A model generated the notes under the pieces. That model made no database searches and was not told the DNA's origin. It worked only from the letters and a program-made list of their open reading frames with translations. Shown in pieces: positions 40,327 through 54,306 of a stretch of DNA of 64,000 bases. The first letter of the stretch is position 1. Each line of letters opens with the position of its first letter. The stretch spans positions 186,001 to 250,000 of the forward strand of contig JAFZVB010000013.1 in assembly GCA_017618055.1 (NCBI GenBank). Reading direction: 5' to 3'. The DNA comes from Clostridia bacterium (GTDB lineage Bacteria > Bacillota > Clostridia > Christensenellales > CAG-917). The translations under genes and the position numbers were made by a program.

Positions 40327-41127
40327 TCAATCTATTTCAATCTCTTCTGGAATATGATTGGTATAAACTGAGAAATGCGTGAAGCCAATTCTTTTTGCCA
40401 TAGCACAAACTACTTCAAAATCCTTCCCAATATCCATTCTATGACTATCTGAACCAAAGCTTATTCTTCTGCCACCAAGTTCATAATATCTCTGAAGTAT
40501 TTCTTCCGCTGGAAGAATGCCATGATGTGTATTGATTTCAAGTGCTTTATCTTTCTCTATAATTTTCTTTAATATTGCGTCTATTAAATCCTTAAAATCT
40601 GCAAGTCTTAAAGATCTATCTTTATATGGTGCATTTCTTGTAACATAACCAATGTGTCCCACGATATCATATTCGTATGGAGCATCTAAGCTTGCAAGTA
40701 TCTTTTCAAGATAATGTCTGTATATCTTCTTCTTAGACCTGAATATAAATGGATTTAAGAAATAAACATCATAATGGTCTACAAAGTGTACAGAGTTTAT
40801 AACTACATCAAATGGATACTTTTTAAATGTTTCTAAATATGCTTCGTTTGCTCCCGGATCAAAACCTGCCTCGATGCCAAATCTAAACTTAATATCTCCA
40901 GCATCTTTAGATGCTTCCTTCCATTCTTCATAATATTTATCCAAATCTATATGATTCCATGCAACAGGAGTCTTATTATATTTGCATTCTTTAAGATCCA
41001 AATCTAAGTGATCTGTTGTTGCAAGATAATAAAACCCTTTATCCTTTGCATTTTGAAGGATATCTTTTATGGTATCATGTCCGTCTGGACTATTTATTGT
41101 ATGGACGTGTGCATCGATTATTTTCAT
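40327..41127 (-). CDS. PHP-domain phosphatase, probable histidinol-phosphatase
   Basis: Metal-dependent PHP phosphoesterase of 266 residues. The metal ligands are visible in IIDAHVHTINSPDGHDTI, ATTDHLDL, GIEAGF, VINSVHFVD, DIVGHIGYV, EINTHHG and FGSDSHRMDIGKDF. The family includes HisK/HisJ histidinol-phosphatase. The his operon in this window lacks that enzyme, so this gene is the obvious candidate, though a general phosphoesterase is possible. It overlaps alaS by 4 nt (ATGA), so it is expressed with it and not with the his genes. Confidence 0.82.
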   Translation of the reverse strand: MKIIDAHVHTINSPDGHDTIKDILQNAKDKGFYYLATTDHLDLDLKECKYNKTPVAWNHIDLDKYYEEWKEASKDAGDIKFRFGIEAGFDPGANEAYLETFKKYPFDVVINSVHFVDHYDVYFLNPFIFRSKKKIYRHYLEKILASLDAPYEYDIVGHIGYVTRNAPYKDRSLRLADFKDLIDAILKKIIEKDKALEINTHHGILPAEEILQRYYELGGRRISFGSDSHRMDIGKDFEVVCAMAKRIGFTHFSVYTNHIPEEIEID

Positions 41128-42917
41128 TGGTTGTTCTCCAATATTGCCTTTATACGTCTTACACCAGCTGAGGATGATTGCTCTTTAACTATCTTGAAGT
41201 GTCCTAGTTCAGATGTGTTCTTTGCGTGTGGACCACCACATATCTCTTTAGAGATACCTACTGTATAAACCTTAACCACTTCACCATATTTGCTATCGAA
41301 TACACCAACTGCTCCTTGTGCCTTTGCTTCTGCAACAGACATTTCTTCCAAGATTACATCTTGGTTCTTCTTGATTTCCTCATTTACCAAGTCTTCAACT
41401 GCTTGAATTTCCTCTGGAGTCATTGGACGTGGGAATGAGAAGTCAAAACGAAGTCTCTCTGGTGTGATATTGCTTCCTCTTTGCATAATAGTCTTGTCAT
41501 TAAGAACTATCTTTAATGCTGCATTAAGTAAGTGTGTTGCTGTATGTAATCTTGCTGTAACTTCACCTGTATCTGCAAGTCCACCTTTGAATTTTTGTTC
41601 TGCACCAGCTTTAGATAATTCTTGGTGCTTTTTGAATGCTTCTTCATAGCCTTGAACATCTACGTCAAAACCTACTTCTTTTGCAAGTTCAATTGTCATT
41701 TCAAGTGGGAATCCAAAGGTATCATAAAGTCTGAATGCTGTCTTACCAGGAATGGTTGTTGAAGGGATGTGTTTTACTACCTTTCCAAACTCATTTATTC
41801 CTTGTTCGATAGTCTTATCAAACTTCTCTTGTTCCATTCTTAATTCGTCTTCTATTCTTTGTGCATTATCTCCAATGTTCTTGTAAATATCTTTGTATTT
41901 TTCAATGTTAAGCTTAGCAAGTTCTATTAATGCACTACCATCTATTCCAAGTACTCTACAGTATCTAACAGCCCTACGAATCAATCTTCTTAATACATAT
42001 CCTTGGTCTACATTGCTTGGTGATAATGGCTTAACATCTCCTAGTAAGAAAGTGGCTGTTCTGGTGTGATCTGCAATGATTCTCATGGCTCTTGTATCAT
42101 CTTCATTTTCGCCATATTTCTTGCCAGATAATTCTTCTAGTTTTTTTATTGAAAATGCCAAAAGGTCGGTTTCATATACCGATTTGTATCCATTAACTAT
42201 GCATAGTGTTCTTTCGAGCCCCATTCCAGTATCTACATTTTTACGTTCCATTGGGCTTAATTTTCCGTCTGAATCTTTGAAATATTGCATGAATACATTA
42301 TTCCAAATTTCGAGGTATTTCCCACATGAGCAAGCAGGTGAACAATCATCACTACACTTATCTTTTCCCGTGTCTATAAACATTTCTGTGTCTGGTCCAC
42401 ATGGTCCAGTTTGTCCAGCTGGTCCCCACCAGTTATTTTCTTTAGGCAAGAAGAATATTTGCTCATCTTTTAATCCCACAGATTTCCATATTTCTGCACT
42501 TTCATTATCTCTTGGACAACTCTCATCTCCTGCAAAGACACTAACGTTTAATTTGGTTGTATCTATACCTAAAACCTTGGTTAAAAATTCATAGGAATAT
42601 GCAATACTTTCTTTCTTAAAATATGCACCTAAAGACCAGTTCCCAAGCATCTCAAAAAATGTGCAGTGGGACTCATCTCCAACCTCATCTATATCGCCTG
42701 TTCTAACACAGATTTGTACGTCTGTTAATTTGTCTCCTGCTGGATGTTTTTCTCCAAGGAGATATGGTACTAATGGATGCATGCCAGCTGTGGTAAATAA
42801 TACAGTTGGATCATTCTCTGGTATTAAGGAAGCTGTAGGTATTACAGCATGACCTTTGCTCTTAAAGAAATCTAAATATAGTTTTCTTAATGTTTCTGAG
42901 TTCATTCTTTCACTCAT
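41124..42917 (-). CDS. alaS: Alanine--tRNA ligase, short form without C-Ala domain
   Basis: Class II synthetase of 597 residues. The catalytic part carries CVRTGDIDEVGDESHCTFFEML-type motif 2, GPAGQTGPCGPDTEMF and DTGMGLERTL. A Cys-rich insertion (KCSDDCSPACSCGKY) follows the GPCGPDTE motif. The editing domain has HTATHLLNAAL and CGGPHAKNTSELGHFKIV. The chain then ends, so the C-terminal C-Ala domain of the usual protein of about 870 residues is absent. The DIDEVGD form differs from the common bacterial GGKHNDLENVG form and resembles short AlaRSs of some uncultured lineages. It is 3 nt after the acyltransferase gene. Confidence 0.92.
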   Translation of the reverse strand: MSERMNSETLRKLYLDFFKSKGHAVIPTASLIPENDPTVLFTTAGMHPLVPYLLGEKHPAGDKLTDVQICVRTGDIDEVGDESHCTFFEMLGNWSLGAYFKKESIAYSYEFLTKVLGIDTTKLNVSVFAGDESCPRDNESAEIWKSVGLKDEQIFFLPKENNWWGPAGQTGPCGPDTEMFIDTGKDKCSDDCSPACSCGKYLEIWNNVFMQYFKDSDGKLSPMERKNVDTGMGLERTLCIVNGYKSVYETDLLAFSIKKLEELSGKKYGENEDDTRAMRIIADHTRTATFLLGDVKPLSPSNVDQGYVLRRLIRRAVRYCRVLGIDGSALIELAKLNIEKYKDIYKNIGDNAQRIEDELRMEQEKFDKTIEQGINEFGKVVKHIPSTTIPGKTAFRLYDTFGFPLEMTIELAKEVGFDVDVQGYEEAFKKHQELSKAGAEQKFKGGLADTGEVTARLHTATHLLNAALKIVLNDKTIMQRGSNITPERLRFDFSFPRPMTPEEIQAVEDLVNEEIKKNQDVILEEMSVAEAKAQGAVGVFDSKYGEVVKVYTVGISKEICGGPHAKNTSELGHFKIVKEQSSSAGVRRIKAILENNQ

Positions 42918-44195: not shown

Positions 44196-44224
44196 ATAAT
44201 AGTTATTATATAGTAATAAGTCAA
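44196..44224 (-). promoter_or_regulatory. Promoter giving a probable leaderless acyltransferase-alaS mRNA
   Basis: On the minus strand TTGACT (44219-44224) and TATTAT (44196-44201) are spaced 17 bp. Only 9 nt separate the -10 from the ATG at 44186, so transcription should start within about 2-4 nt of the start codon. There is no SD. Confidence 0.65.
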
Positions 44225-44288
44225 ACAATATGGCATAAAATCGGATTTTTCAGTTTTTAAAAATTTTGCCAATTTTTTAAACAAAAAA

Positions 44289-44330
44289 GCACTTTAAGTG
44301 CCGATTGTGTTGCGTAAACTCAATTTTTTT
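44289..44330. repeat. 42-bp dispersed repeat, copy A (includes terminator hairpin)
   Basis: This copy is identical at 39 of 42 positions to 52249-52290, in the same orientation. On the minus strand it begins at the stop codon of the lipoprotein gene, runs through the conserved TTTACGCAACACAATCGGCA, and ends in the hairpin GCACTT-A-AAGTGC followed by TTTTTT, a terminator. Confidence 0.85.
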
Positions 44331-44799
44331 AATAATTTTCAAGCAAAATTATGTATTCGCAGGGCGCATTTGTAGGCAAATAATTGGTTCCAACGTTTGC
44401 TAGTCTAAATGTAACCCCATCCACTCTTTTCATAAGATTTGCACTGTATAAGTTGTCATCTTCTATGTTGTGATATATCATTATGCCCTTTGTAGATGTA
44501 TCTTGCAAGGTATCTATCTTATTAGCATAATACATACCATCATATTCGTCATATTTATACTCAGAGATATCGCCTATTGAAACCATATAGGTTAGAAGAT
44601 CATGCAATGTTGCATACTCTGCACTCTTTAAAAACACCTTATCTCCAATAGTTAACTTAACTACTCCTACCTCTACTTCTTCCCCTGGTTCATCTACTTC
44701 TTTTCCGCCTAATCCGTATACACACGAGCATAAAGATAACATGCTACCGATAAGTAGTATTAGTACAAATATTGATAGGTAAAGTCGTTTCGTTTTCAT
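44329..44799 (-). CDS. Small lipoprotein, possibly DUF4430-like
   Basis: Secreted lipoprotein of 156 residues with a hydrophobic signal and lipobox LCSC (Cys near 26). The mature part (VVKLTIGDKVFLKSAEYATL, HDLLTYMVSI, DGVTFRLANVG) has the size and strand pattern of a small transcobalamin-like DUF4430 domain, but I am not sure of that. It stands alone. The gene ends inside the repeat copy at 44289-44330. No clear SD precedes the ATG. Confidence 0.6.
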   Translation of the reverse strand: MKTKRLYLSIFVLILLIGSMLSLCSCVYGLGGKEVDEPGEEVEVGVVKLTIGDKVFLKSAEYATLHDLLTYMVSIGDISEYKYDEYDGMYYANKIDTLQDTSTKGIMIYHNIEDDNLYSANLMKRVDGVTFRLANVGTNYLPTNAPCEYIILLENY

Positions 44800-44805
44800 A
44801 CTTAA

Positions 44806-44835
44806 ATTTTAACACGTAGCGCTAAATAATATCAA
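44806..44835 (-). promoter_or_regulatory. Possible promoter of the lipoprotein gene, very close to its ATG
   Basis: On the minus strand TTGATA (44830-44835) and TAAAAT (44806-44811) are spaced 18 bp. Six nucleotides separate the -10 from the ATG, which again would give a leaderless transcript. This is weaker than the other examples. Confidence 0.45.
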
Positions 44836-44890
44836 TATTGCCAAATTTTGTCGTTTTAAGTTTACAAAACTTAATGTGACTTTCGTTATG

Positions 44891-44919
44891 TTGACTTATT
44901 TTTTATACACGTGTATAAT
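44891..44919 (+). promoter_or_regulatory. Strong promoter with a perfect 16-bp palindrome over the -10
   Basis: TTGACT (44891-44896) and TATAAT (44914-44919) are spaced 17 bp. The spacer and -10 contain TTATACACGTGTATAA (44903-44918), a perfect palindrome and a strong candidate operator. It drives the zinc-ribbon membrane protein 37 nt downstream. Confidence 0.8.
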
Positions 44920-44955
44920 AACTCTTGATACTATCTTATATAAAGGAGATTAATT

Positions 44956-45900
44956 ATGTATACAAGATGTCCTAGTTGTAGAGCCGAAATTAGTTTCGAG
45001 CCACCAAGAAATCTTGCAAACCTTCCACAAGGATACAAACATCGTATTAGATGCCCTAACTGTGGTGTAACTATTAGTGTTAAGATGCCAGATTCTACTG
45101 CTGTAGCAAAAACAGCACCAACTTATTCTTATCAAGATCCAGATCAACAAGGATATGATGAAATCAGAATGGGAGAAGGCACAGTACAAGATAAAGGCGA
45201 AGCAAGAGATATTGTTAAAGCAGATAAGAAATCAAAAACAAAGAAATGCCGTCCAAGAAGCGCTGTTATGCTTATATTCAGCTTAATCTTTGTTGCATTA
45301 AACGTACTTGCTTATCTCGATGTACAAATACCAAAAGTCAGCGATTATATTTCATGGCAATATTTCAATGGTATTAAGGTCATTGAAAACATCATAAATG
45401 ATGCAGCTGGATTTGCTGCAGGATTCTCAGGTGGAGATATGGTTTCTTTAATTGGAACAATCTTCTCATTAATCCCAGCATTAATCTTCATACTTGCAGG
45501 TATCGTTGCTCTTATGAACTTAATCGGATTAATCATTGGCAAGTATGGCAAAACATTTAATATTATAATGATAATTATAGTATTACTTTTAAGCGTAGCA
45601 TTCTTTGTAGTTCCTTATATCGTAGTATCTAAGGGATTAGCTGGACAAGGTGCAACATTTGGATTCAAAGATTACTTCGATGCAATCCTCGGAAAGTACA
45701 ACTTCCCACCAGAAGGTGTAACATGGACACCACAAAGAACAACAGAAATTGGAGAAGCTTGTGCTCAATTCATCGAACTTGAAGACCACACATACAACCT
45801 TATGCACTTAGTAGTACCTGGACTCGGATTTATCTACTTCGTTCTTGGTATCGTTGCTTGTGCAATTCCAAAGAAGAGAAAAGAAAAAGTCGAAGGCTAA
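44956..45900 (+). CDS. Zinc-ribbon protein fused to four TM helices
   Basis: Protein of 314 residues. The N-terminus is an MJ0042-type zinc ribbon (CPSC at residues 5-8 and CPNC at about 33-36: TRCPSCRAEISF, then IRCPNCGVTISV). A charged linker to about residue 97 and a membrane part with about four TM helices follow (SAVMLIFSLIFVALNVLAYL, ALIFILAGIVALMNLIGLII, IIMIIIVLLLSVAFFVVPYI and a last one near the end). The role is unknown. The membrane part resembles in layout the two proteins encoded at 49.2-50.9 kb. The SD AAAGGAG is strong, and the gene has its own promoter. Confidence 0.75.
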   Translation: MYTRCPSCRAEISFEPPRNLANLPQGYKHRIRCPNCGVTISVKMPDSTAVAKTAPTYSYQDPDQQGYDEIRMGEGTVQDKGEARDIVKADKKSKTKKCRPRSAVMLIFSLIFVALNVLAYLDVQIPKVSDYISWQYFNGIKVIENIINDAAGFAAGFSGGDMVSLIGTIFSLIPALIFILAGIVALMNLIGLIIGKYGKTFNIIMIIIVLLLSVAFFVVPYIVVSKGLAGQGATFGFKDYFDAILGKYNFPPEGVTWTPQRTTEIGEACAQFIELEDHTYNLMHLVVPGLGFIYFVLGIVACAIPKKRKEKVEG

Positions 45901-45922
45901 TACGGTTAATATTAAAAATATT

Positions 45923-45956
45923 AAGGCTCTGGTTAAATACTGGAGCCTTTATTTAT
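45923..45956. terminator. Bidirectional terminator between the zinc-ribbon gene and rlmH
   Basis: AAGGCTC (45923-45929) pairs with GAGCCTT (45943-45949) around a 13-nt loop. T-rich sequence follows on the plus strand. It overlaps the rlmH stop codon. Confidence 0.7.
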
Positions 45957-46407
45957 GGTATGGAATATGATTTAAAATAGTTTCTGCCCTATAAATCTGT
46001 TCTAAGAGCATTACTCTAAATAACTGGTGTGGGAATGTCATGTCTGAAAAAGACAATAATGAATCTGCTTTATTTCTAACTTCATCTGATAGTCCGTTGG
46101 ATCCACCTATAACAAAAGATATCTCAGATATTCCCTCATTTCTCTTGGCTTGTATAAGTTTTGCAAAATCATTAGATGTATACTTCTTACCCTTTATATC
46201 TAGGGCAATTATATAACCGTGTGCTTTATTTAAAATACCATCTCCCTCTATCTTGCATTGTTCCTCGATACTCTTTCCTTGTGGTGCTTCTGGTATTTCT
46301 ATAACTGTCATAGCATCAAATCTAGATAAACGCTTGAGATATTCTTCACAAGCTGATACAAAATAATCTTCTTTTAATTTTCCAACTGCAATAATATTTA
46401 TTTTCAT
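45949..46407 (-). CDS. rlmH: 23S rRNA pseudouridine methyltransferase RlmH
   Basis: SPOUT-class methyltransferase of 152 residues that methylates pseudouridine 1915 of 23S rRNA. It starts MKINIIAVGKLKEDYF. The knot motifs are ALDIKGKKYTSNDFAKLI, FVIGGSNGLSDEV and the C-terminal MTFPHQLFRVMLLEQIYRA with the end NHIPYHK. The ATG at 46407 overlaps the upstream stop as ATGA. A slightly longer start is possible but less likely. It is the last gene of the walJ operon. Confidence 0.97.
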   Translation of the reverse strand: MKINIIAVGKLKEDYFVSACEEYLKRLSRFDAMTVIEIPEAPQGKSIEEQCKIEGDGILNKAHGYIIALDIKGKKYTSNDFAKLIQAKRNEGISEISFVIGGSNGLSDEVRNKADSLLSFSDMTFPHQLFRVMLLEQIYRAETILNHIPYHK

Positions 46408-47372
46408 CTCATTATTCCCCATGCAAGCGAGAACGCTGTGGCGATTACACCAACAATTATTATACCACTAATTAATACCTTATCTGCAATAGTATAACTT
46501 CCTTCTCCATTAGATTGTTCTAATAGCATTCCTTTTGCTTTTGCATCTTTTCTCATCCTATCTAACATAAAGATTATAGCAACTACGCATAGCGTAAATA
46601 TCAATACTGCTATAATATAACCCCAGAATGTTCCTGTGAAGAAATCATATACTTTGTCATATGCTGTTTCAAACCAAGTTGTCTTTTGATACAAATAATC
46701 CTCTAATACATTTAGCCCGTTATTTAACATATGGACCATCATGCCGCAGATAATAGATCCTGAGTAATATGTCACCAATCCCATTACCATTCCATCTACA
46801 AACGTATAAACGGTCTGATATATATTCTGATGCATTAGTGCGAAGAATAAGGATGTTATTACTATAAGTAATATTCCTTTCTTTTTGCCTTCCTTTAAAC
46901 CTGCAAATAATAGACCTCTGTGTGTGAACTCTTCAAAGAATCCAGGAAGGAATGCTGTAAAGACTAATTCTTTAAACAATATACCAACATTATAGTAGTC
47001 CGTGGATGTAGAGGCTCTAGAATAGCCGAACATTCCAAGGAACAGACTCCATATAGTAACTATGCAAATAGAACAGAAAAGCATAAGGATGGTTATAGGG
47101 AGCGTTAAAAGCATATGTGTGCCTTTTGGCTTTTTAAAGCCAAATTCCTCGAAGATTACAGGTATATCTAAAAACTTTCCATGCTTGTTTGTTATGAAAT
47201 AAAGTGTGAATGGCATAATACCAAATATTAGTACTTGGACTATTAAAGTCCAAATATCACCAGAATCCATTAAAGAACCACTACCAAATCCTAAAGAAAA
47301 AGCAATCCTAAGCAATAATGTGCAAAGAATTACTCCAAAATATATAAATAGTACGGAAGTGGTTTTTCTCAT
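46404..47372 (-). CDS. CPBP-family intramembrane metalloprotease (A)
   Basis: Membrane protein of 322 residues, CPBP/Abi (CAAX protease-like) family. The three active-site motifs are EEFTHRG (EExxxR), FALMHQN (FxxxH) and HMLNNGLN (HxxxN/D). About eight TM helices are predicted. The role could be maturation or degradation of membrane or signal peptides. It overlaps its paralogue upstream and rlmH downstream, by 4 nt each (ATGA). Confidence 0.88.
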   Translation of the reverse strand: MRKTTSVLFIYFGVILCTLLLRIAFSLGFGSGSLMDSGDIWTLIVQVLIFGIMPFTLYFITNKHGKFLDIPVIFEEFGFKKPKGTHMLLTLPITILMLFCSICIVTIWSLFLGMFGYSRASTSTDYYNVGILFKELVFTAFLPGFFEEFTHRGLLFAGLKEGKKKGILLIVITSLFFALMHQNIYQTVYTFVDGMVMGLVTYYSGSIICGMMVHMLNNGLNVLEDYLYQKTTWFETAYDKVYDFFTGTFWGYIIAVLIFTLCVVAIIFMLDRMRKDAKAKGMLLEQSNGEGSYTIADKVLISGIIIVGVIATAFSLAWGIMR

Positions 47373-48454
47373 CTAATAATACCAACAATTAATGCTATTA
47401 CCCATTCAACAGCTACAACTATTAAAGCAATCCAAAAACTAATCTCTTGCATGAATGGTTTTGGTCCGACATAGTCTACTTTAGATAAATCAAAGAGCTT
47501 ACTATTTAAATTCTTCCAACCTTTCTTTGTGAATAAAGATCCAAAGAAAATAAAGGCATCTTTTATAGGGTTGGACTTCTTTTTGTCTTCTGCATATGCT
47601 GTTATTGTGAAATCATCTGTAACAATCTTATATTCCCCGTTGTTTCCTCCATTCTTTCCGGATTTAGAGAGTCTATAAAAGAAATAGAGCAAGAATACTA
47701 AGACTATTATGCCACCAATAGAGATGAGAATATCATAAAGTGGCCACATATTGCCGAAGTTTATATTATCTATTTGTGGAATATATGCTGTAACGAGAAT
47801 GCTTATAAAGTTATTTAGGAAATGCAATATAATGCTAGGCCATATGGAGTCTGAGATAATAAATACAAGCACTAAAACAACTCCAAAGAAGAATTGGAAT
47901 AATGTTTGATATGGATTTCCATGCATAAGCATAAATAAAAGGGCTGTCATTGCAACGCCAAACCAACCACCACGAGTAGCTACACCATTATATACAGTTC
48001 CTCTCATAAAGAACTCTTCGCCGAAGGCAGGTATTATAGCCATTATTATCATAGATAATACAAATACTCCTGGAGTGAAATCTGTTGGAGCTGTAACACT
48101 ACCATAATATCCCATAACATTAAGTAGTCTTATGAACATTGCTGTTAAAGGATAGAAGGCAACTACACAACATACTGCAATGAAAGGAATTAATATAAAA
48201 GATACTGCTCTAGGCTTAGTATTAACCCTTGCTATATATAAGAAGTCACATTTCTTTAATTTTACAAACAAAAATGCTGAGAAAAAGAATCCTATGGAAC
48301 CAACTGGATATGCAATCCATGTTCCAATGCTCATTCCACCGAATTCTCCAATGTTTTGCAAAGCAAAAGCTAGTATATTTTGAAGTACTGTTGTAACAAC
48401 TACTCCAATAATAAATACAAATCCACTTTCATTTAAAGATAATTGCCTTCTCAT
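47369..48454 (-). CDS. CPBP-family intramembrane metalloprotease (B)
   Basis: Second CPBP protease of 361 residues with the motifs GEEFFMRG, FMLMHGN and HFLNNFIS, eight or so TM helices and a hydrophilic stretch (about 265-310) before a last helix pair. It is a paralogue of the next gene, and the two overlap by 4 nt. In other Firmicutes the gene between walJ and rlmH is often the protease htrA; here two intramembrane proteases fill the place. Confidence 0.88.
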   Translation of the reverse strand: MRRQLSLNESGFVFIIGVVVTTVLQNILAFALQNIGEFGGMSIGTWIAYPVGSIGFFFSAFLFVKLKKCDFLYIARVNTKPRAVSFILIPFIAVCCVVAFYPLTAMFIRLLNVMGYYGSVTAPTDFTPGVFVLSMIIMAIIPAFGEEFFMRGTVYNGVATRGGWFGVAMTALLFMLMHGNPYQTLFQFFFGVVLVLVFIISDSIWPSIILHFLNNFISILVTAYIPQIDNINFGNMWPLYDILISIGGIIVLVFLLYFFYRLSKSGKNGGNNGEYKIVTDDFTITAYAEDKKKSNPIKDAFIFFGSLFTKKGWKNLNSKLFDLSKVDYVGPKPFMQEISFWIALIVVAVEWVIALIVGIIR

Positions 48455-49239
48455 AGTATCTTAAACAATTGTGTTGCGCAGTCTTGTGTTGCTACAGACA
48501 CATTGGTATCTCCTAGTAAATCTTTTTGGCATAAGCCATTATATACTGTCTTATATGCAAGGTCTTCTGTATTGTTCTCTTGTGATATATGTCCAAGTAT
48601 TAATTGTTGCAAGTTTCCATTAGTACTCTTTATATTGCAAGATACATTTAAGGTTACATCATTACAGATATGTCCTCTAATGCCTAGTATTCTTTGTTTA
48701 AGCCATGCTGGATAACTACCTTTTCGTAACATATTAATATCATGGTTTGCTTCAAGTAATAAAATATTGCTATCTCGTATTGCATCTAGCATCCCTTTTG
48801 TGACTACTCCGGAGTCTGTTGAGATACTAAACTTAGCATCTCCCGAGGTAATAGAATAACCTACTGGATCTACTGCGTCATGGGATATACTGAATGGATT
48901 TATATGCAAATCTCCGATGTCAAATCCATACATGAAATTTAACACTTCGCCTACTTTATCTATCGTTTTGTTACGATTAACTATGGCTTTGAGAGTTTTA
49001 TCGCTTGTGTAGACATCTGTGAATTCACTAAACTTATCTATGGATAATATGTGGTCACTATGCTCATGTGTAACCAAAACACCAGACAAATCTTCAGGGA
49101 CTAAACCTAACTTTGCAAGTTCTTCTGTAAGTCTCTTAACAGTAATACCAGCATCTATTAATACTGCCGTATTATCTGTCATAACCAGGGAACAATTTCC
49201 CTTTGAACCACTTGCAAATGATATAAATTTTAATCCCAT
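48451..49239 (-). CDS. walJ: MBL-fold exonuclease-like protein WalJ/YycJ
   Basis: Metallo-beta-lactamase-fold hydrolase of 262 residues. It starts MGLKFISFASGSKGNCSLV, the YycJ signature. The metal motif THEHSDH is followed by SHDAVDPVGY, STDSGVV and LLLEANHD. YycJ/WalJ is thought to act on DNA and, in Bacillus, sits in the walRK operon close to rlmH. The walJ/rlmH linkage is kept here without walRK. It overlaps the next gene by 4 nt. Confidence 0.92.
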   Translation of the reverse strand: MGLKFISFASGSKGNCSLVMTDNTAVLIDAGITVKRLTEELAKLGLVPEDLSGVLVTHEHSDHILSIDKFSEFTDVYTSDKTLKAIVNRNKTIDKVGEVLNFMYGFDIGDLHINPFSISHDAVDPVGYSITSGDAKFSISTDSGVVTKGMLDAIRDSNILLLEANHDINMLRKGSYPAWLKQRILGIRGHICNDVTLNVSCNIKSTNGNLQQLILGHISQENNTEDLAYKTVYNGLCQKDLLGDTNVSVATQDCATQLFKIL

Positions 49240-49240
49240 T

Positions 49241-50125
49241 TTAGATAACTGCTGAAGATCTTTCTATTTCTTCTTCTGCCAAATCTTCCTTCTTTCTATT
49301 TACTGCAGCAAGAATAATGATGAACATAAGCTTTACAAACATTAATGCTACTACGAATATCTGTACTGCATCCTTATTAACATTGAATTGACTCTTTGCT
49401 ATATTCATGACAAGTGCAACTAATGTTGTAACGAAAGCAAGTAATGCCATAGCAACGTGTGCCCCACCAGGATACTTACCACCTAATAAGCCTATAAATG
49501 AACCTATTGCAGTAAGACCACAAGCACCAAACGCAACCATATACAATATAATATATATGATTTGGTCTATAGCTGGACTTGTATGTCCTTGTACCCAGTT
49601 TGCTAAATCTCCAATTGGGTCCAATGCATTTTCACCTAAAGCTGAGAAGATATTTGGCACAAAGTGAGCAAGTATGAAGTATGCAACTCCCACAAGAGCA
49701 AATGCGAGAGTAAATAGAGAGAGCAAACGTTTTCTAACCTTAGCCTTTTGCTTTGCTTTAGCAATATTTTGAGCTTCAACCTTCTTAAATTCTGCAGATG
49801 AACCTTCACCACTATATTGAGAAGACTCATAACCAGCATTTTCGCCTGGTCTTCCTTCTGTTTTAAGGACATCTGAATCTGAGGACATATATGGAACTAC
49901 TGCCAAAGGAACTATGATTGGCTGTAATTGTACTGTAGTGTGCTTTGGTGCCACTATTGGTACGGGACCACCAGTTCCAACAACCTTTGTAAAGGTTGTT
50001 TCCATACCAGCATCTGGAGTTGCCTCGCTATATGCTTCAGTTTCTAGCTCTTTTTCTCGTTTTTGTTGCTCTTCGAGTTCTTGTAGTCTCAATAACTCTT
50101 CTTTCTTCTTGCTCTTTTTTGACAT
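49241..50125 (-). CDS. Four-TM membrane protein with long charged N-terminus (A)
   Basis: Unrecognised membrane protein of 294 residues. The first 130 residues are hydrophilic: a Lys/Glu-rich coil, a Val/Pro-rich stretch and a basic patch (KAKQKAKVRKR). About four TM helices follow, with outside loops. The layout is similar to that of its neighbour and of the zinc-ribbon fusion at 45 kb, so a small paralogous family is likely. It is located between another such protein and walJ, in the same operon. Confidence 0.7.
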   Translation of the reverse strand: MSKKSKKKEELLRLQELEEQQKREKELETEAYSEATPDAGMETTFTKVVGTGGPVPIVAPKHTTVQLQPIIVPLAVVPYMSSDSDVLKTEGRPGENAGYESSQYSGEGSSAEFKKVEAQNIAKAKQKAKVRKRLLSLFTLAFALVGVAYFILAHFVPNIFSALGENALDPIGDLANWVQGHTSPAIDQIIYIILYMVAFGACGLTAIGSFIGLLGGKYPGGAHVAMALLAFVTTLVALVMNIAKSQFNVNKDAVQIFVVALMFVKLMFIIILAAVNRKKEDLAEEEIERSSAVI

Positions 50126-50152
50126 AACGTACCTCTCTATTTAGGTTATGTA

Positions 50153-50941
50153 TTATACACCATGTTTTAAATATCCAGATTTATCTGGGTTTGCTATTCT
50201 AAGTATTATTGCTAGTAATAAGTTCACTAATGCAAAGGCTAGAAGTGTGAAATATTCGGATTCATAGAACTTATATATAAAGTCTTGAATGAAGTTTATT
50301 CTTTCTACTCCTATAGCATTTACTCCAACCAATGCCATAATGAATACTATAAGGACTGTTATTAGATAGAACATTGCAGATGCAACGAATCTTACAGGTC
50401 TTACACCACCTAGTATTGCTATGAATGATTTAATGAAATTAGCCAACAACCCTATTATTCCAAGGAATAATATCATCGAAGGAATCATGCCCATCCATAT
50501 TGTCTTAAGTGTTGCTGCATCTTGTCCTATTGAGCCTTGTATTGCTTTAACTAGTGAGCCAAACACATTGTATTGTTGTAAGGAGAAAATAAATGGTTTA
50601 GAGATATTTAATCCAAACGAACCCAATATAAATGGCAATGCAACTGCAGCTGTAACAAATAACATAATTACACCAGCAAATACGTTTCTATTTCTCTTAG
50701 TTCTTCTAACTCTCTTACTCTGATCTCTCTTTTTTGGTTGGAAATCATCTATTGTAGAGCCAGATGAACCTTCTGGACCAGAAACCTGCCTTAATTTAGG
50801 CTGGAACTCAAATGGTTGCACTGCCTTAGGAAGAACGTTTGTATCATTCTTCTTTACTGGATCTGGTGCAAGCCTTAATCCGTTTTCATCTACCGGTACC
50901 ATGACCGATGGATCTCTATATGGATCGTATTGTTCTGGCAT
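50153..50941 (-). CDS. Four-TM membrane protein with hydrophilic N-terminus (B)
   Basis: Unrecognised membrane protein of 262 residues. An 85-residue hydrophilic N-terminus ends in a basic patch (KKRDQSKRVRRTKRNR). Four or so TM helices follow (VFAGVIMLFVTAAVALPFIL, IPSMILFLGIIGLLANFI, FYLITVLIVFIMALVGVN and FTLLAFALVNLLLAIIL). It lies 1 nt after the zinc-ribbon gene. No enzymatic motif is visible. Confidence 0.7.
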   Translation of the reverse strand: MPEQYDPYRDPSVMVPVDENGLRLAPDPVKKNDTNVLPKAVQPFEFQPKLRQVSGPEGSSGSTIDDFQPKKRDQSKRVRRTKRNRNVFAGVIMLFVTAAVALPFILGSFGLNISKPFIFSLQQYNVFGSLVKAIQGSIGQDAATLKTIWMGMIPSMILFLGIIGLLANFIKSFIAILGGVRPVRFVASAMFYLITVLIVFIMALVGVNAIGVERINFIQDFIYKFYESEYFTLLAFALVNLLLAIILRIANPDKSGYLKHGV

Positions 50942-50942
50942 A

Positions 50943-52133
50943 CTAAATCTCGCTATCTCCTGGTTTTACTTCCTTTGCTCCATTTGGTTGTTCGTTGTTT
51001 CCATTTGGAGTTACTGGTTTCATTGTTACTTTTGGTTGATTAAATCTATCTGCAGGTGTGTACTGCATTAATGGTTGTTCTTGTGTTACATATGGTACAA
51101 ATGCAACTGGTTGAAGGATAGGTGGCATTTGATATGGGTCTCTACCATAGTACATATATGGGTTTTGACCTTGGAAGTTATTAAATCCATTGATATTTTG
51201 CCCACCATTCTGCATTCCAGGTGTTCCATATGGCATATTTCCTTGCCCGAGTTTGGCATTTCTGTTGTAATCTTCTGGAATATCTGTATCTACATCTACA
51301 GGTTCAAACTTTCCTTGAGCGAATTCTTCAAATGTTGGGTTTGGATCTGGTGAAACATCTGCTTGAGGAGCTGTAATAATATCTATTTTTCTCTTAACAG
51401 CCTTTGCTTGAGATATCTTACCCTTATTTAAAAGGATAATACTACGTGCCTTACTTCTACCACAGTGTGTACATGCAGCAATATCTGCAGGATTAATGGT
51501 TCCACAAACTGGACAAACATAAGTAGTACCTTCATATGAATCATCTGAAACAGCACTACTTGGGTCTGAATAATATATTGCGTATGATTTTAATGCTTGA
51601 GATAGTTTCTTTAATTGTGCAACATCTTCTGGACCTAATTCATTAAGTTTGTTTCTATATTCATCTAAAAGTGCAGCCTTCTTATTTAACTCGTCATCTG
51701 CATTATGAATTCTTTCTTGCATCTCATTAATGAAAGATTCTTTTGTTGCTTCAAAATCTGCTCTTCTTTGAGCTATCTCTTTATCTATTTCTTCTAGTCT
51801 TTCTTTCTCCATTATATCCAAGCTACGTTTTGCTTTTTGCATAGCGAGGAAGTCATCAGTAGAGTGAGTATCATCTTCCATTACTATTGGAGCACCACAG
51901 GAAACACAGTATTTGGCACCAGGCATATTTTCGGCACCACATATAGCACATTTTGGTTTACGTAAACTTTCTAATATAGTTCCACAAGCAGCACAGAATC
52001 TACTACCTGCCGGATTGATAGTGCCACACTTTGGACAGCGGGCCTCATAACTTCTAACAACATCCGCACCACAACTTGGGCAATATGCCATGCCCGGTGA
52101 TACACTGTTTCCACAAACCTTACATTTTAACAT
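50943..52133 (-). CDS. Multi-zinc-ribbon protein with coiled coil
   Basis: Protein of 396 residues. Three consecutive double-CxxC zinc ribbons lie in the first 85 residues (LKCKVCGN/AYCPSCGAD, ARCPKCGTINPAGSRFCAAC, PKCAICGAENMPGAKYCVSC). A coiled coil spans about residues 90-190. A fourth ribbon (YVCPVCGTINPADIAACTHC) is near 210. A Pro/Asn/Gln-rich, probably disordered tail follows. It looks like a soluble adaptor. First gene of the operon; SD GGAGG is 6 nt before ATG. Confidence 0.8.
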   Translation of the reverse strand: MLKCKVCGNSVSPGMAYCPSCGADVVRSYEARCPKCGTINPAGSRFCAACGTILESLRKPKCAICGAENMPGAKYCVSCGAPIVMEDDTHSTDDFLAMQKAKRSLDIMEKERLEEIDKEIAQRRADFEATKESFINEMQERIHNADDELNKKAALLDEYRNKLNELGPEDVAQLKKLSQALKSYAIYYSDPSSAVSDDSYEGTTYVCPVCGTINPADIAACTHCGRSKARSIILLNKGKISQAKAVKRKIDIITAPQADVSPDPNPTFEEFAQGKFEPVDVDTDIPEDYNRNAKLGQGNMPYGTPGMQNGGQNINGFNNFQGQNPYMYYGRDPYQMPPILQPVAFVPYVTQEQPLMQYTPADRFNQPKVTMKPVTPNGNNEQPNGAKEVKPGDSEI

Positions 52134-52172
52134 GTGTTTCCTCCACGTTATTACTCTACTAATCTATTATTA

Positions 52173-52201
52173 ATTATATATACGCGCACGTAAAAACTCA
52201 A
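52173..52201 (-). promoter_or_regulatory. Promoter of the zinc-ribbon/walJ/rlmH operon
   Basis: On the minus strand TTGAGT (52196-52201) and a perfect TATAAT (52173-52178) are spaced 17 bp. The spacer contains TACG-TGCG-CGTA, a short inverted repeat. The leader is about 35 nt. Confidence 0.65.
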
Positions 52202-52248
52202 TAAAAAACGCAAAAATAAAAAATTTTGTTGAAAAAATAACAAAATCG

Positions 52249-52290
52249 GCACTTTAAATGCCGATTGTGTTGCGTAAAGTCAATATTTTT
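52249..52290. repeat. 42-bp dispersed repeat, copy B (includes terminator hairpin)
   Basis: This is the second copy of the sequence at 44289-44330 (three mismatches). On the minus strand it follows glnS by 5 nt. With flanking bases it forms the hairpin AATCGGCA/TGCCGATT followed by a T-rich stretch, so it acts as the glnS terminator. Confidence 0.85.
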
Positions 52291-52295
52291 TATTG

Positions 52296-53921
52296 CTACA
52301 TCTTGAAAGAATCTTTCAAAGGTACTATAGAATTGTATGTATTCGTTTTCTTGGTCTTGATGAAATAACCCTCTCTCATGAACTGGAATCTAGTACCAAC
52401 AGGAGCAGAATCTAAGTATTTCTCTGCTTTTGATGATAATACTTCTAGGGAGTTAGGATTAAGTCTATCCATAAAGTCTCCCTCGCCATCTAAGATTAGG
52501 TAATCAAACATATTAAGTGTTACATCACTGCAGTCATTTGCATTTACCCAGTGTATTGTACCCTTAACTTTCATATTGGAATTAGGCTCACCAGATTTAG
52601 TGCCTTCTAAGAACTTGGCGTGTACACATGTAACGTTTCCGTCTGCGTCTACGTCTGCGCCTGTGCACTCAACTATATATGCGCCTTTCAATCTTACTAT
52701 ACCACCAACTTGCATTCTAAAATATTTTGGTGGTGGGTTAAGCATGAAGTCATCTGCCTCGATATAAAGTTCTTTTCCGAACTTGCATACGTGTTTTCCT
52801 TCTTCTGGTTTTTGAGGATTGTTATCGATGAATACATCTTCCTCTTTTCCGTCTGGGTAATTATCTATGACAAGCTTAATTGGTTTTGTAACAACCATAA
52901 CTCTTGTTGCGTTCTCATTAAGGTTTTCTCTTACACAATGTTCAAGCATTGCGATATCGACCTCGCTAACAGCCTTAGCTACACCAATTCTTGAGCAGAA
53001 GTCTCTAATTGCTTCTGGAGGATATCCTCTTTCTCTCATACCAGACAATGTGCTAAGTCTTGGATCATTCCATCCCCAAACAATACCTTCGTCTACCAAA
53101 CGCTTTAAGAAACGTTTAGACATAACTGTATGAGTAAGGTTCAATCTTGCGAATTCGATTTGTCTTGGTAATGGCTTTGGGAAACCTGTATTTTCTACAA
53201 CCCAGTTATAAAGTGGTCTGTGGTCTTCAAATTCAAGAGAACAGCAAGAGTGTGTAATTCCCTCGATTGCATCTTCAATTGGATGTGCGAAGTCATACAT
53301 TGGATAGATACACCACTTATCTCCTGTGTGTGGGTGTGATGTATGGCTAATACGATAGATAACAGGATCTCTCATATTAATATTATTTGCAGCCATATCT
53401 ATCTTTGCTCTTAAAACTCTAGCACCATTTTCAAACTCACCGTTCTTCATTCTCTCGAACAAGTCTAGATTTTCCTCCATGCTACGGTTTCTATATGGGC
53501 TTTCCTTTCCTGGTGTATGCAAGTCTCCTCTAGAGTCCTTAATTTCATCTGCTGTCAAATCATCTACATATGCCTTACCATCTTTAATAAGCATTACAGC
53601 ACATTCATACATCTTTTGGAAGTAATCTGAAGCATATCTTAATTCATCCCATTGGAATCCAAGCCATTTAATATCTTCTTGGATTGTATCCATATACTCT
53701 GTATCTTCTTTAACTGGGTTTGTGTCGTCAAAACGTAAATTGCACTTACCGTGGTATGTTTCTTTTAGACCAAAGTTAATGCATATAGCTTTTGCATGCC
53801 CAATATGAAGATAACCGTTTGGCTCTGGTGGGAATCTTGTATGAATAGCAGATACTTTGCCTTCAGCTAATTCCTCATCAATAATTTCTTCAATAAAGTT
53901 CTTTGATTTTATTTCTTCCAT
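52296..53921 (-). CDS. glnS: Glutamine--tRNA ligase
   Basis: Class I synthetase of 541 residues from ATG 53921. The HIGH-type motif is FPPEPNGYLHIGHAKA at about 30-45. The KMSKS-type motif is VMSKRFLKRL. GlnRS-specific parts follow, including the two-barrel anticodon domain (KLVIDNYPDGKEED, MQVGGIVRLKGAYIVEC). An in-frame ATG at 53954 lies inside the upstream gene and lacks an SD. Many Firmicutes lack GlnRS and use GatCAB, so its presence may mark an old transfer. It starts 10 nt after the GNAT-like gene. Confidence 0.95.
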   Translation of the reverse strand: MEEIKSKNFIEEIIDEELAEGKVSAIHTRFPPEPNGYLHIGHAKAICINFGLKETYHGKCNLRFDDTNPVKEDTEYMDTIQEDIKWLGFQWDELRYASDYFQKMYECAVMLIKDGKAYVDDLTADEIKDSRGDLHTPGKESPYRNRSMEENLDLFERMKNGEFENGARVLRAKIDMAANNINMRDPVIYRISHTSHPHTGDKWCIYPMYDFAHPIEDAIEGITHSCCSLEFEDHRPLYNWVVENTGFPKPLPRQIEFARLNLTHTVMSKRFLKRLVDEGIVWGWNDPRLSTLSGMRERGYPPEAIRDFCSRIGVAKAVSEVDIAMLEHCVRENLNENATRVMVVTKPIKLVIDNYPDGKEEDVFIDNNPQKPEEGKHVCKFGKELYIEADDFMLNPPPKYFRMQVGGIVRLKGAYIVECTGADVDADGNVTCVHAKFLEGTKSGEPNSNMKVKGTIHWVNANDCSDVTLNMFDYLILDGEGDFMDRLNPNSLEVLSSKAEKYLDSAPVGTRFQFMREGYFIKTKKTNTYNSIVPLKDSFKM

Positions 53922-53931
53922 AAGTTTTTGC

Positions 53932-54306
53932 TCAGCAACCAGAGCAACCTCCATGTAAATTTATATTTTGTGACCATATTGATGTATATCCATCTTCATA
54001 TACAAATCCAAATTTGTATAACTCTTTATGATCTCCTTCTAGTTTCAATAACATAGATGCACCTTGATACTTATATAAGACACTTCTTAAGAAGAAATCC
54101 TTGTCTCCAAATGACATTCCGTCTACATAATAGATTTTATCTATTAAAGCCGAACCATCTTGTTGTACAAAGTTTCTAGCAAATCCTACTGGTTTCTCGT
54201 CATCTAGGAATAAAAATAAAACTCCACCAGGAACATCATTTAATCCCAAGGTGTTGTAAATATTCTTTTCTTCTTCGGCACTTGTTATTAATTTTAAAGT
54301 TAACAT
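53932..54306 (-). CDS. GNAT-like acetyltransferase, small
   Basis: Protein of 124 residues with a reduced GNAT-like shape (FLDDEKPVGFARNF, then LIDKIYYVDGMSFGDKDFFLRSVLYKY, then KFGFVYED). The acetyl-CoA loop is not obvious, so the enzymatic activity is doubtful. It ends GGCSGC. It precedes glnS closely, and its 3' end overlaps one possible glnS start. The ATG has no SD and lies next to its promoter. Confidence 0.6.
   Translation of the reverse strand: MLTLKLITSAEEEKNIYNTLGLNDVPGGVLFLFLDDEKPVGFARNFVQQDGSALIDKIYYVDGMSFGDKDFFLRSVLYKYQGASMLLKLEGDHKELYKFGFVYEDGYTSIWSQNINLHGGCSGC

Follow-up and report, generated by a model that had tools for sequence, protein, structure and literature searches.

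A terminator-like sequence shared by glnS and a nearby lipoprotein gene in a Clostridia bacterium: probable single copying of a gene end

The window analysed here is the whole 64,000-nucleotide stretch of contig JAFZVB010000013.1 from a Clostridia bacterium. In it, two minus-strand genes, for a putative lipoprotein and a putative glutaminyl-tRNA synthetase (glnS), are followed by nearly the same sequence. The copies at 44289-44330 (copy A, behind the lipoprotein gene) and 52249-52290 (copy B, behind glnS) lie 7.96 kb apart in the same orientation, and a direct comparison confirmed the agreement at 39 of 42 positions that had been reported in the first-pass annotation. Without gaps, the repeat extends to 56 nt at 84 % identity (about 55 bp aligned), and it is the longest and first-listed of the 23 direct-repeat families of the window. 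The reported position at or within 6 nt of the 3' end of each gene also held: 2 nt of copy A fall within the stop codon of its gene, and 5 nt separate the end of copy B from the glnS stop codon.

A promoter-like site of the next gene comes after each element (Table 1), although matches of this kind are not more common in the region than in shuffled sequences (45 compared to 53.5). The elements are therefore assigned to the 3' ends of the upstream genes, and a leader or riboswitch of the following genes was rejected for the same reason. Elsewhere in the window, 46404-48454 on the minus strand holds a tandem pair of CAAX-protease-type (Rce1-like) membrane proteins. An alanyl-tRNA-synthetase-like ORF at 41124-42917 (minus strand, named by eye) has only 597 aa; alanyl-tRNA synthetases are usually about 870 aa long, and the C-terminal domain is possibly missing.

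Table 1. Features of the two gene ends and of the weaker relatives elsewhere in the genome; positions refer to the window unless a contig is given.
Feature	Position	Strand	Basis or remark
Copy A, 3'-UTR and terminator-like segment behind the lipoprotein gene (putative derived copy)	44278..44333	-	in G000 and G001, absent from G002
Short hairpin of copy A, then T-run	44288..44302	-	terminator scan; fold z -0.51
Shared 20-mer, copy A	44299..44318	-	repeat and genome search
Lipoprotein gene, 156 aa	44329..44799	-	signal peptide with LCSC lipobox, by eye; no Pfam match
Promoter-like site of next gene, downstream of copy A, TTGACT-17-TATTAT	44196..44224	-	consensus match only
Copy B, 3'-UTR and predicted intrinsic terminator of glnS (putative ancestral copy)	52238..52293	-	hairpin kept in G001 and G002
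Extended predicted terminator stem of copy B (AACA.AAUCGGCAUU / AGUGCCGAUU.UGUU), including 12 nt of the shared 20-mer	52239..52271	-	fold -17 kcal/mol, z -4.12
Shared 20-mer, copy B	52259..52278	-	repeat and genome search
glnS, putative glutaminyl-tRNA synthetase (name from the first-pass annotation)	52296..53954	-	relatives 54-97 % identical in Clostridia and others
Promoter-like site of next gene, downstream of copy B, TTGAGT-17-TATAAT	52173..52201	-	consensus match only
C1 hairpin relative, between efp and asp23-like gene (names by eye)	C1:168162-168208		BLAST and covariance model R1
C20 hairpin relative, intergenic	C20:35776-35843		BLAST and covariance model R1

Both copies contain the 20-mer TTTACGCAACACAATCGGCA, which occurs twice in the window compared to an expectation of 0.00; none of 100 shuffled sequences contained two matches. 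With up to three mismatches, the search of the genome (G000; 28 contigs, 1,576,270 bases or 1.58 Mb, 95 % complete) returned two matches, copies A and B, and the reversed pattern had no match in the whole genome. The first-pass annotation had anticipated further copies and had accepted that their absence would leave a simple local duplication, which is the outcome of this search.

The terminator scan found 9 candidates in the region compared to 6.3 in shuffled sequences, and it picked up both copies, each with a T-rich tract after the stem. The predicted folds differ in strength. The RNA of copy B reaches -17 kcal/mol (z -4.12), and none of 200 shuffled sequences folds as well, whereas copy A reaches -7.6 kcal/mol in G000 and -7.4 kcal/mol in the sister genome G001 (z -0.51 each), with 54 of 200 shuffled sequences as good as copy A. 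By fold energy, copy B has the stable hairpin of an intrinsic terminator and copy A does not. The stem of copy B takes in 12 of the 20 shared bases (AACA and AATCGGCA), with TTTACGC (7 bases) outside and one mismatch. Therefore, these 20 nt would not be superfluous for termination, contrary to what had been proposed. The description of hairpin arms that differ between the copies while remaining paired was correct in part: within the 42 bp a single hairpin base differs, C for U, both of which pair with G, but copy A has lost the partners of AATCGG in the 3' arm, with GTGCTTTTTTG where copy B has GTGCCGATTTTG. The 5' arm is retained in copy A, and a weak hairpin remains. The plain reading of these predictions is that both elements are intrinsic terminators, strong behind glnS and weak behind the lipoprotein gene, and that copy A probably acts as the weaker terminator. 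No match to Rfam at the gathering score was found in the window, and a known structured RNA family was rejected on this ground; one sub-threshold match lies near copy B (27 of 70 bits).

Three genomes of the genus were compared. In G001, both 20-mers are present without change behind the same two genes and 7,960 bp apart as in G000, and the two regions are 91.9 % identical over 17,141 aligned columns. Behind glnS of the third genome, G002, lies TTTATTTAACATAATCGGCATTTAAAGTGCCGATTTTGTTATTTT, which corresponds to 16 of the 20 bases of the 20-mer and is accompanied by an identical hairpin core; this 3' end also folds strongly (z -5.95). The lipoprotein of G002 is 76 % identical as a protein. At the 3' end of its gene, there is no difference in stop codon or A-run, and beyond them the sequence diverges and contains no such palindrome (-3.7 kcal/mol, z 0.46). 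The site of copy A is thus filled in G000 and G001, and G002 has other sequence there instead of a clean empty site. Two matches to the 20-mer with three mismatches in G002 were rejected as copies A or B, one being inside an ORF (L004) and the other a site of the C20 type described below (L006). Within the family, a 30-mer search with up to three mismatches found the repeat in two of 43 genomes, G000 and G001 only. The next nearest relative (L031), with a glnS 74 % identical, has no such element at the glnS locus, where a zinc-ribbon gene lies close behind glnS.

Within G000, copy A is distinguished from copy B at 3 of 42 positions, compared to 8 of 42 (ungapped) between the B copies of G000 and G002. 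Since the two copies in one genome are more alike than the orthologous ones, the copying is placed later than the G002 split. Between G000 and G001, glnS has 92 differences in 1659 bases, with 32 of 190 fourfold sites changed; between G000 and G002 it has 172 in 1584 bases, with 56 of 181 fourfold sites changed. Most simply, copies A and B would have parted after the G002 split and before the split of G000 and G001, a polarity given by one genome, G002, which is 76 % complete. A less simple alternative is an older duplication with loss of copy A in G002, for which A and B would need a later re-homogenisation. What stands of the originally suggested mobile or regulatory 3'-end element is the apparent gain of a 3'-end sequence at a second gene, absent at the lipoprotein gene of G002 and present at its glnS; the regulatory part finds no support with two full copies only.

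The preferred explanation, to which a probability of about three in four is given, is that the 3'-end terminator of glnS was copied once to the nearby lipoprotein gene in the ancestor shared by G000 and G001, once the G002 lineage had split off. The element is then an ordinary intrinsic terminator and not a genome-wide control element. At the original site behind glnS, RNA polymerase would read past the stop codon, AACACAAUCGGCAUU in the RNA would pair with AGUGCCGAUUUUGUU to form a 14-pair stem with a UAA loop, and the transcript would be released at the U-rich stretch after the stem. About 40 nt beyond, the gene after glnS would start from a promoter-like site of its own. About 55 bp of the glnS 3' end would have been copied over 7.96 kb with unchanged orientation, and the presumed junctions would fall within the A-rich and T-rich tracts found on either side of an intrinsic terminator, suggesting a microhomology-type mechanism. 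After the copying, the outer 3' arm of copy A would have been lost, and its 5' arm and a short hairpin with T-run would have remained. Two results speak against the simplest form of this explanation. The match between copy A of G001 and the C1 site (77 % over 72 nt, E 3.5e-5) reaches further downstream than the match between this copy and copy B, which is not expected from plain copying of copy B, and the hairpin half of the element is found again at two more sites, C1 and C20.

These two relatives leave room for a small dispersed family. A stretch of 28 nt is 93 % identical between C1 and C20 (E 7e-5), and C1 has 19 exact bases in common with copy B. A covariance model, R1, was built from nine copies of the genus, leaving out the C20 sequence of G000, which is rearranged inside. 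The nine best places of R1 in the genus are its own nine source sequences, and the sites of A, B, C1 and C20 are well above the rest; the C20 site of G000, which was outside the build, reached 24 bits (E 0.7). On this evidence, a decayed MITE- or REP-like palindromic intergenic family might occupy four sites per genome, with copy B adopted as a terminator and copy A as the latest insertion. The heptamer TTAAAAA, read from the sequence, flanks copy A on both sides and could be a target duplication, but it is common in such AT-rich DNA. Furthermore, the flanks of A and B outside the hairpin do not match those of C1 and C20 beyond chance in 36 comparisons, the best of which (B of G002 against C1 of G001) was reached by 4 of 1000 shuffles. 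Counterparts of C1 and C20 are present in all three genomes, so no insertion is shown at these sites. Searches for viral, phage or plasmid sequences were without match, and such an origin of the element was rejected. Taken with this counter-evidence, the dispersed family is considered unlikely. Another hairpin with a T-run lies nearer to the upstream gene at C20, as read from the sequence, and therefore the C20 element is not needed there as a terminator. Co-regulated promoters of the genes after copy B and C1 were rejected, as the score of 28 between the promoter regions was reached by 93 of 1000 shuffles.

In the wider family, R1 (E up to 0.1) has matches in 30 of 43 genomes, or 27 of 40 outside the genus. 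These are distributed over the genera g3 (17 of 20), g8 (7 of 10) and g9 (3 of 3), with none in the seven genomes of the other six genera. Across the phylum, matches were found in 3 of 61 genomes including the own genome, that is 2 of 60 elsewhere, in a draw with the same stricter filters as the family search and fewer candidates scored per genome. One family genome, G007, has 8 places in 385 kb (E up to 1), and the 79 glnS loci of other organisms have 1 place in 1.3 Mb. Outside the genus, 17 matches were returned as loci and read. They form palindromic hairpins, and the majority are terminators separating convergent genes of various kinds. A model-free count of the motif (T-run then GT) gave 16 of 56 in G007, 23 of 120 in mixed glnS loci of other lineages and 1 of 30 in the own genome. 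Since this count does not set the family apart, a family-wide element is not claimed despite the enrichment of R1, which may stem from one ancestral element or from a terminator-making habit of the family. A lineage-specific, slowly spreading terminator module in this uncultured family (approximately TTTA..CAACAMAAWCGGCA, a TTTAA-type loop and TGCCGWTTTTGTT..TAAA), copied between gene ends and with A and B as one dated event, appears quite improbable. If it were true, terminators would be acquired by copying and not solely made anew.

The main idea of the first-pass annotation, a binding site or RNA element shared by several transcripts and regulating both genes, is very unlikely. The four copies in G000 and G001 do not differ within the 20-mer, but 20 unchanged bases are often to be expected given the glnS divergence between these genomes. 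The 20-mer occurs at two genes only, 4 of its 20 positions are changed behind glnS of G002, and 12 of the 20 bases are already accounted for by the terminator stem; there was no sign of constraint on it beyond this use. A small RNA is disfavoured likewise, since there are two full copies, of which the second has a decayed hairpin, and no Rfam match. Convergence of unrelated terminators on one sequence is hardly credible: at their ends both copies have a hairpin of the same type and a T-rich tail, but the identity spans 20 bases including 7 outside the stem, the shuffled windows never held the 20-mer twice, and the local score of A and B is 74, compared to 33 for the best of all pairs drawn from 30 oriented terminator candidates in this genome (464 kb, from bases 1-400,000 of contig C1 and the window; a set that does not return A and B together).

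Intrinsic (Rho-independent) terminators have been catalogued with TransTermHP for 343 prokaryotes (PMC1852404). The elements resemble them in the hairpin directly behind the stop codon, the T-rich stretch after it and the strong fold of copy B, and differ from those catalogued in that two in one genome have 39 of 42 bases in common. In Neisseria and Pasteurellaceae, DNA uptake sequences form terminators and generally number at least 1,000 per genome (PMC1852404). A repeated sequence within the terminators of different genes is a shared trait, but the 20-mer of A and B has two copies per genome (up to three mismatches) instead of hundreds to thousands, and an uptake sequence was rejected. REP/REPIN and MITE elements are likewise short, palindromic and intergenic (PMC2817692, PMC3116915, PMC10969869), and REPs usually exceed 100 copies per genome (PMC2817692). 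In contrast, many copies with a common unit are not seen here: full copies number two, and the flanks of the two hairpin relatives do not match.

Among the papers listed by searches for repeated or duplicated terminators, none dealt with the copying of single natural terminators. The present locus would be a small, dated case of a terminator gained by copying, with the sequence at glnS in three genomes and at the lipoprotein gene in two of those. Were copying of this kind frequent, terminators would spread as modules do. In this genome, the case means only that two neighbouring transcripts have a common 3' end.

Two further observations were made away from the window. The gap between efp and the asp23-like gene is about 840 bp long (L009:1353-2194 in contig C1 of G000; also L137 and L138) and contains a GC-rich inverted repeat (CACGCACACGTGCGCGCGTATGC), where the assembly of G001 breaks; an ATPase-like gene adjoins this gap in G001. 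In G007, of the same family, a dispersed gene-end element of about 130-150 nt has 5 copies in 384,599 bases (L212:19839(+), L219:2481(-), L220:743(-), L226:1802(+) and L228:10354(+)). Three of its loci were tested against Rfam, with no match except tRNAs. Its layout consists of GCGACCTGCATTGTCAGGTCGCTTTTTTTG, a variable hairpin and GCATCTCATC, with inverted ends AACCTCGTGATTTA / TAAATCACGAGGTT in some copies, and it gives the impression of a genuine multi-copy 3'-end element or of a small RNA.
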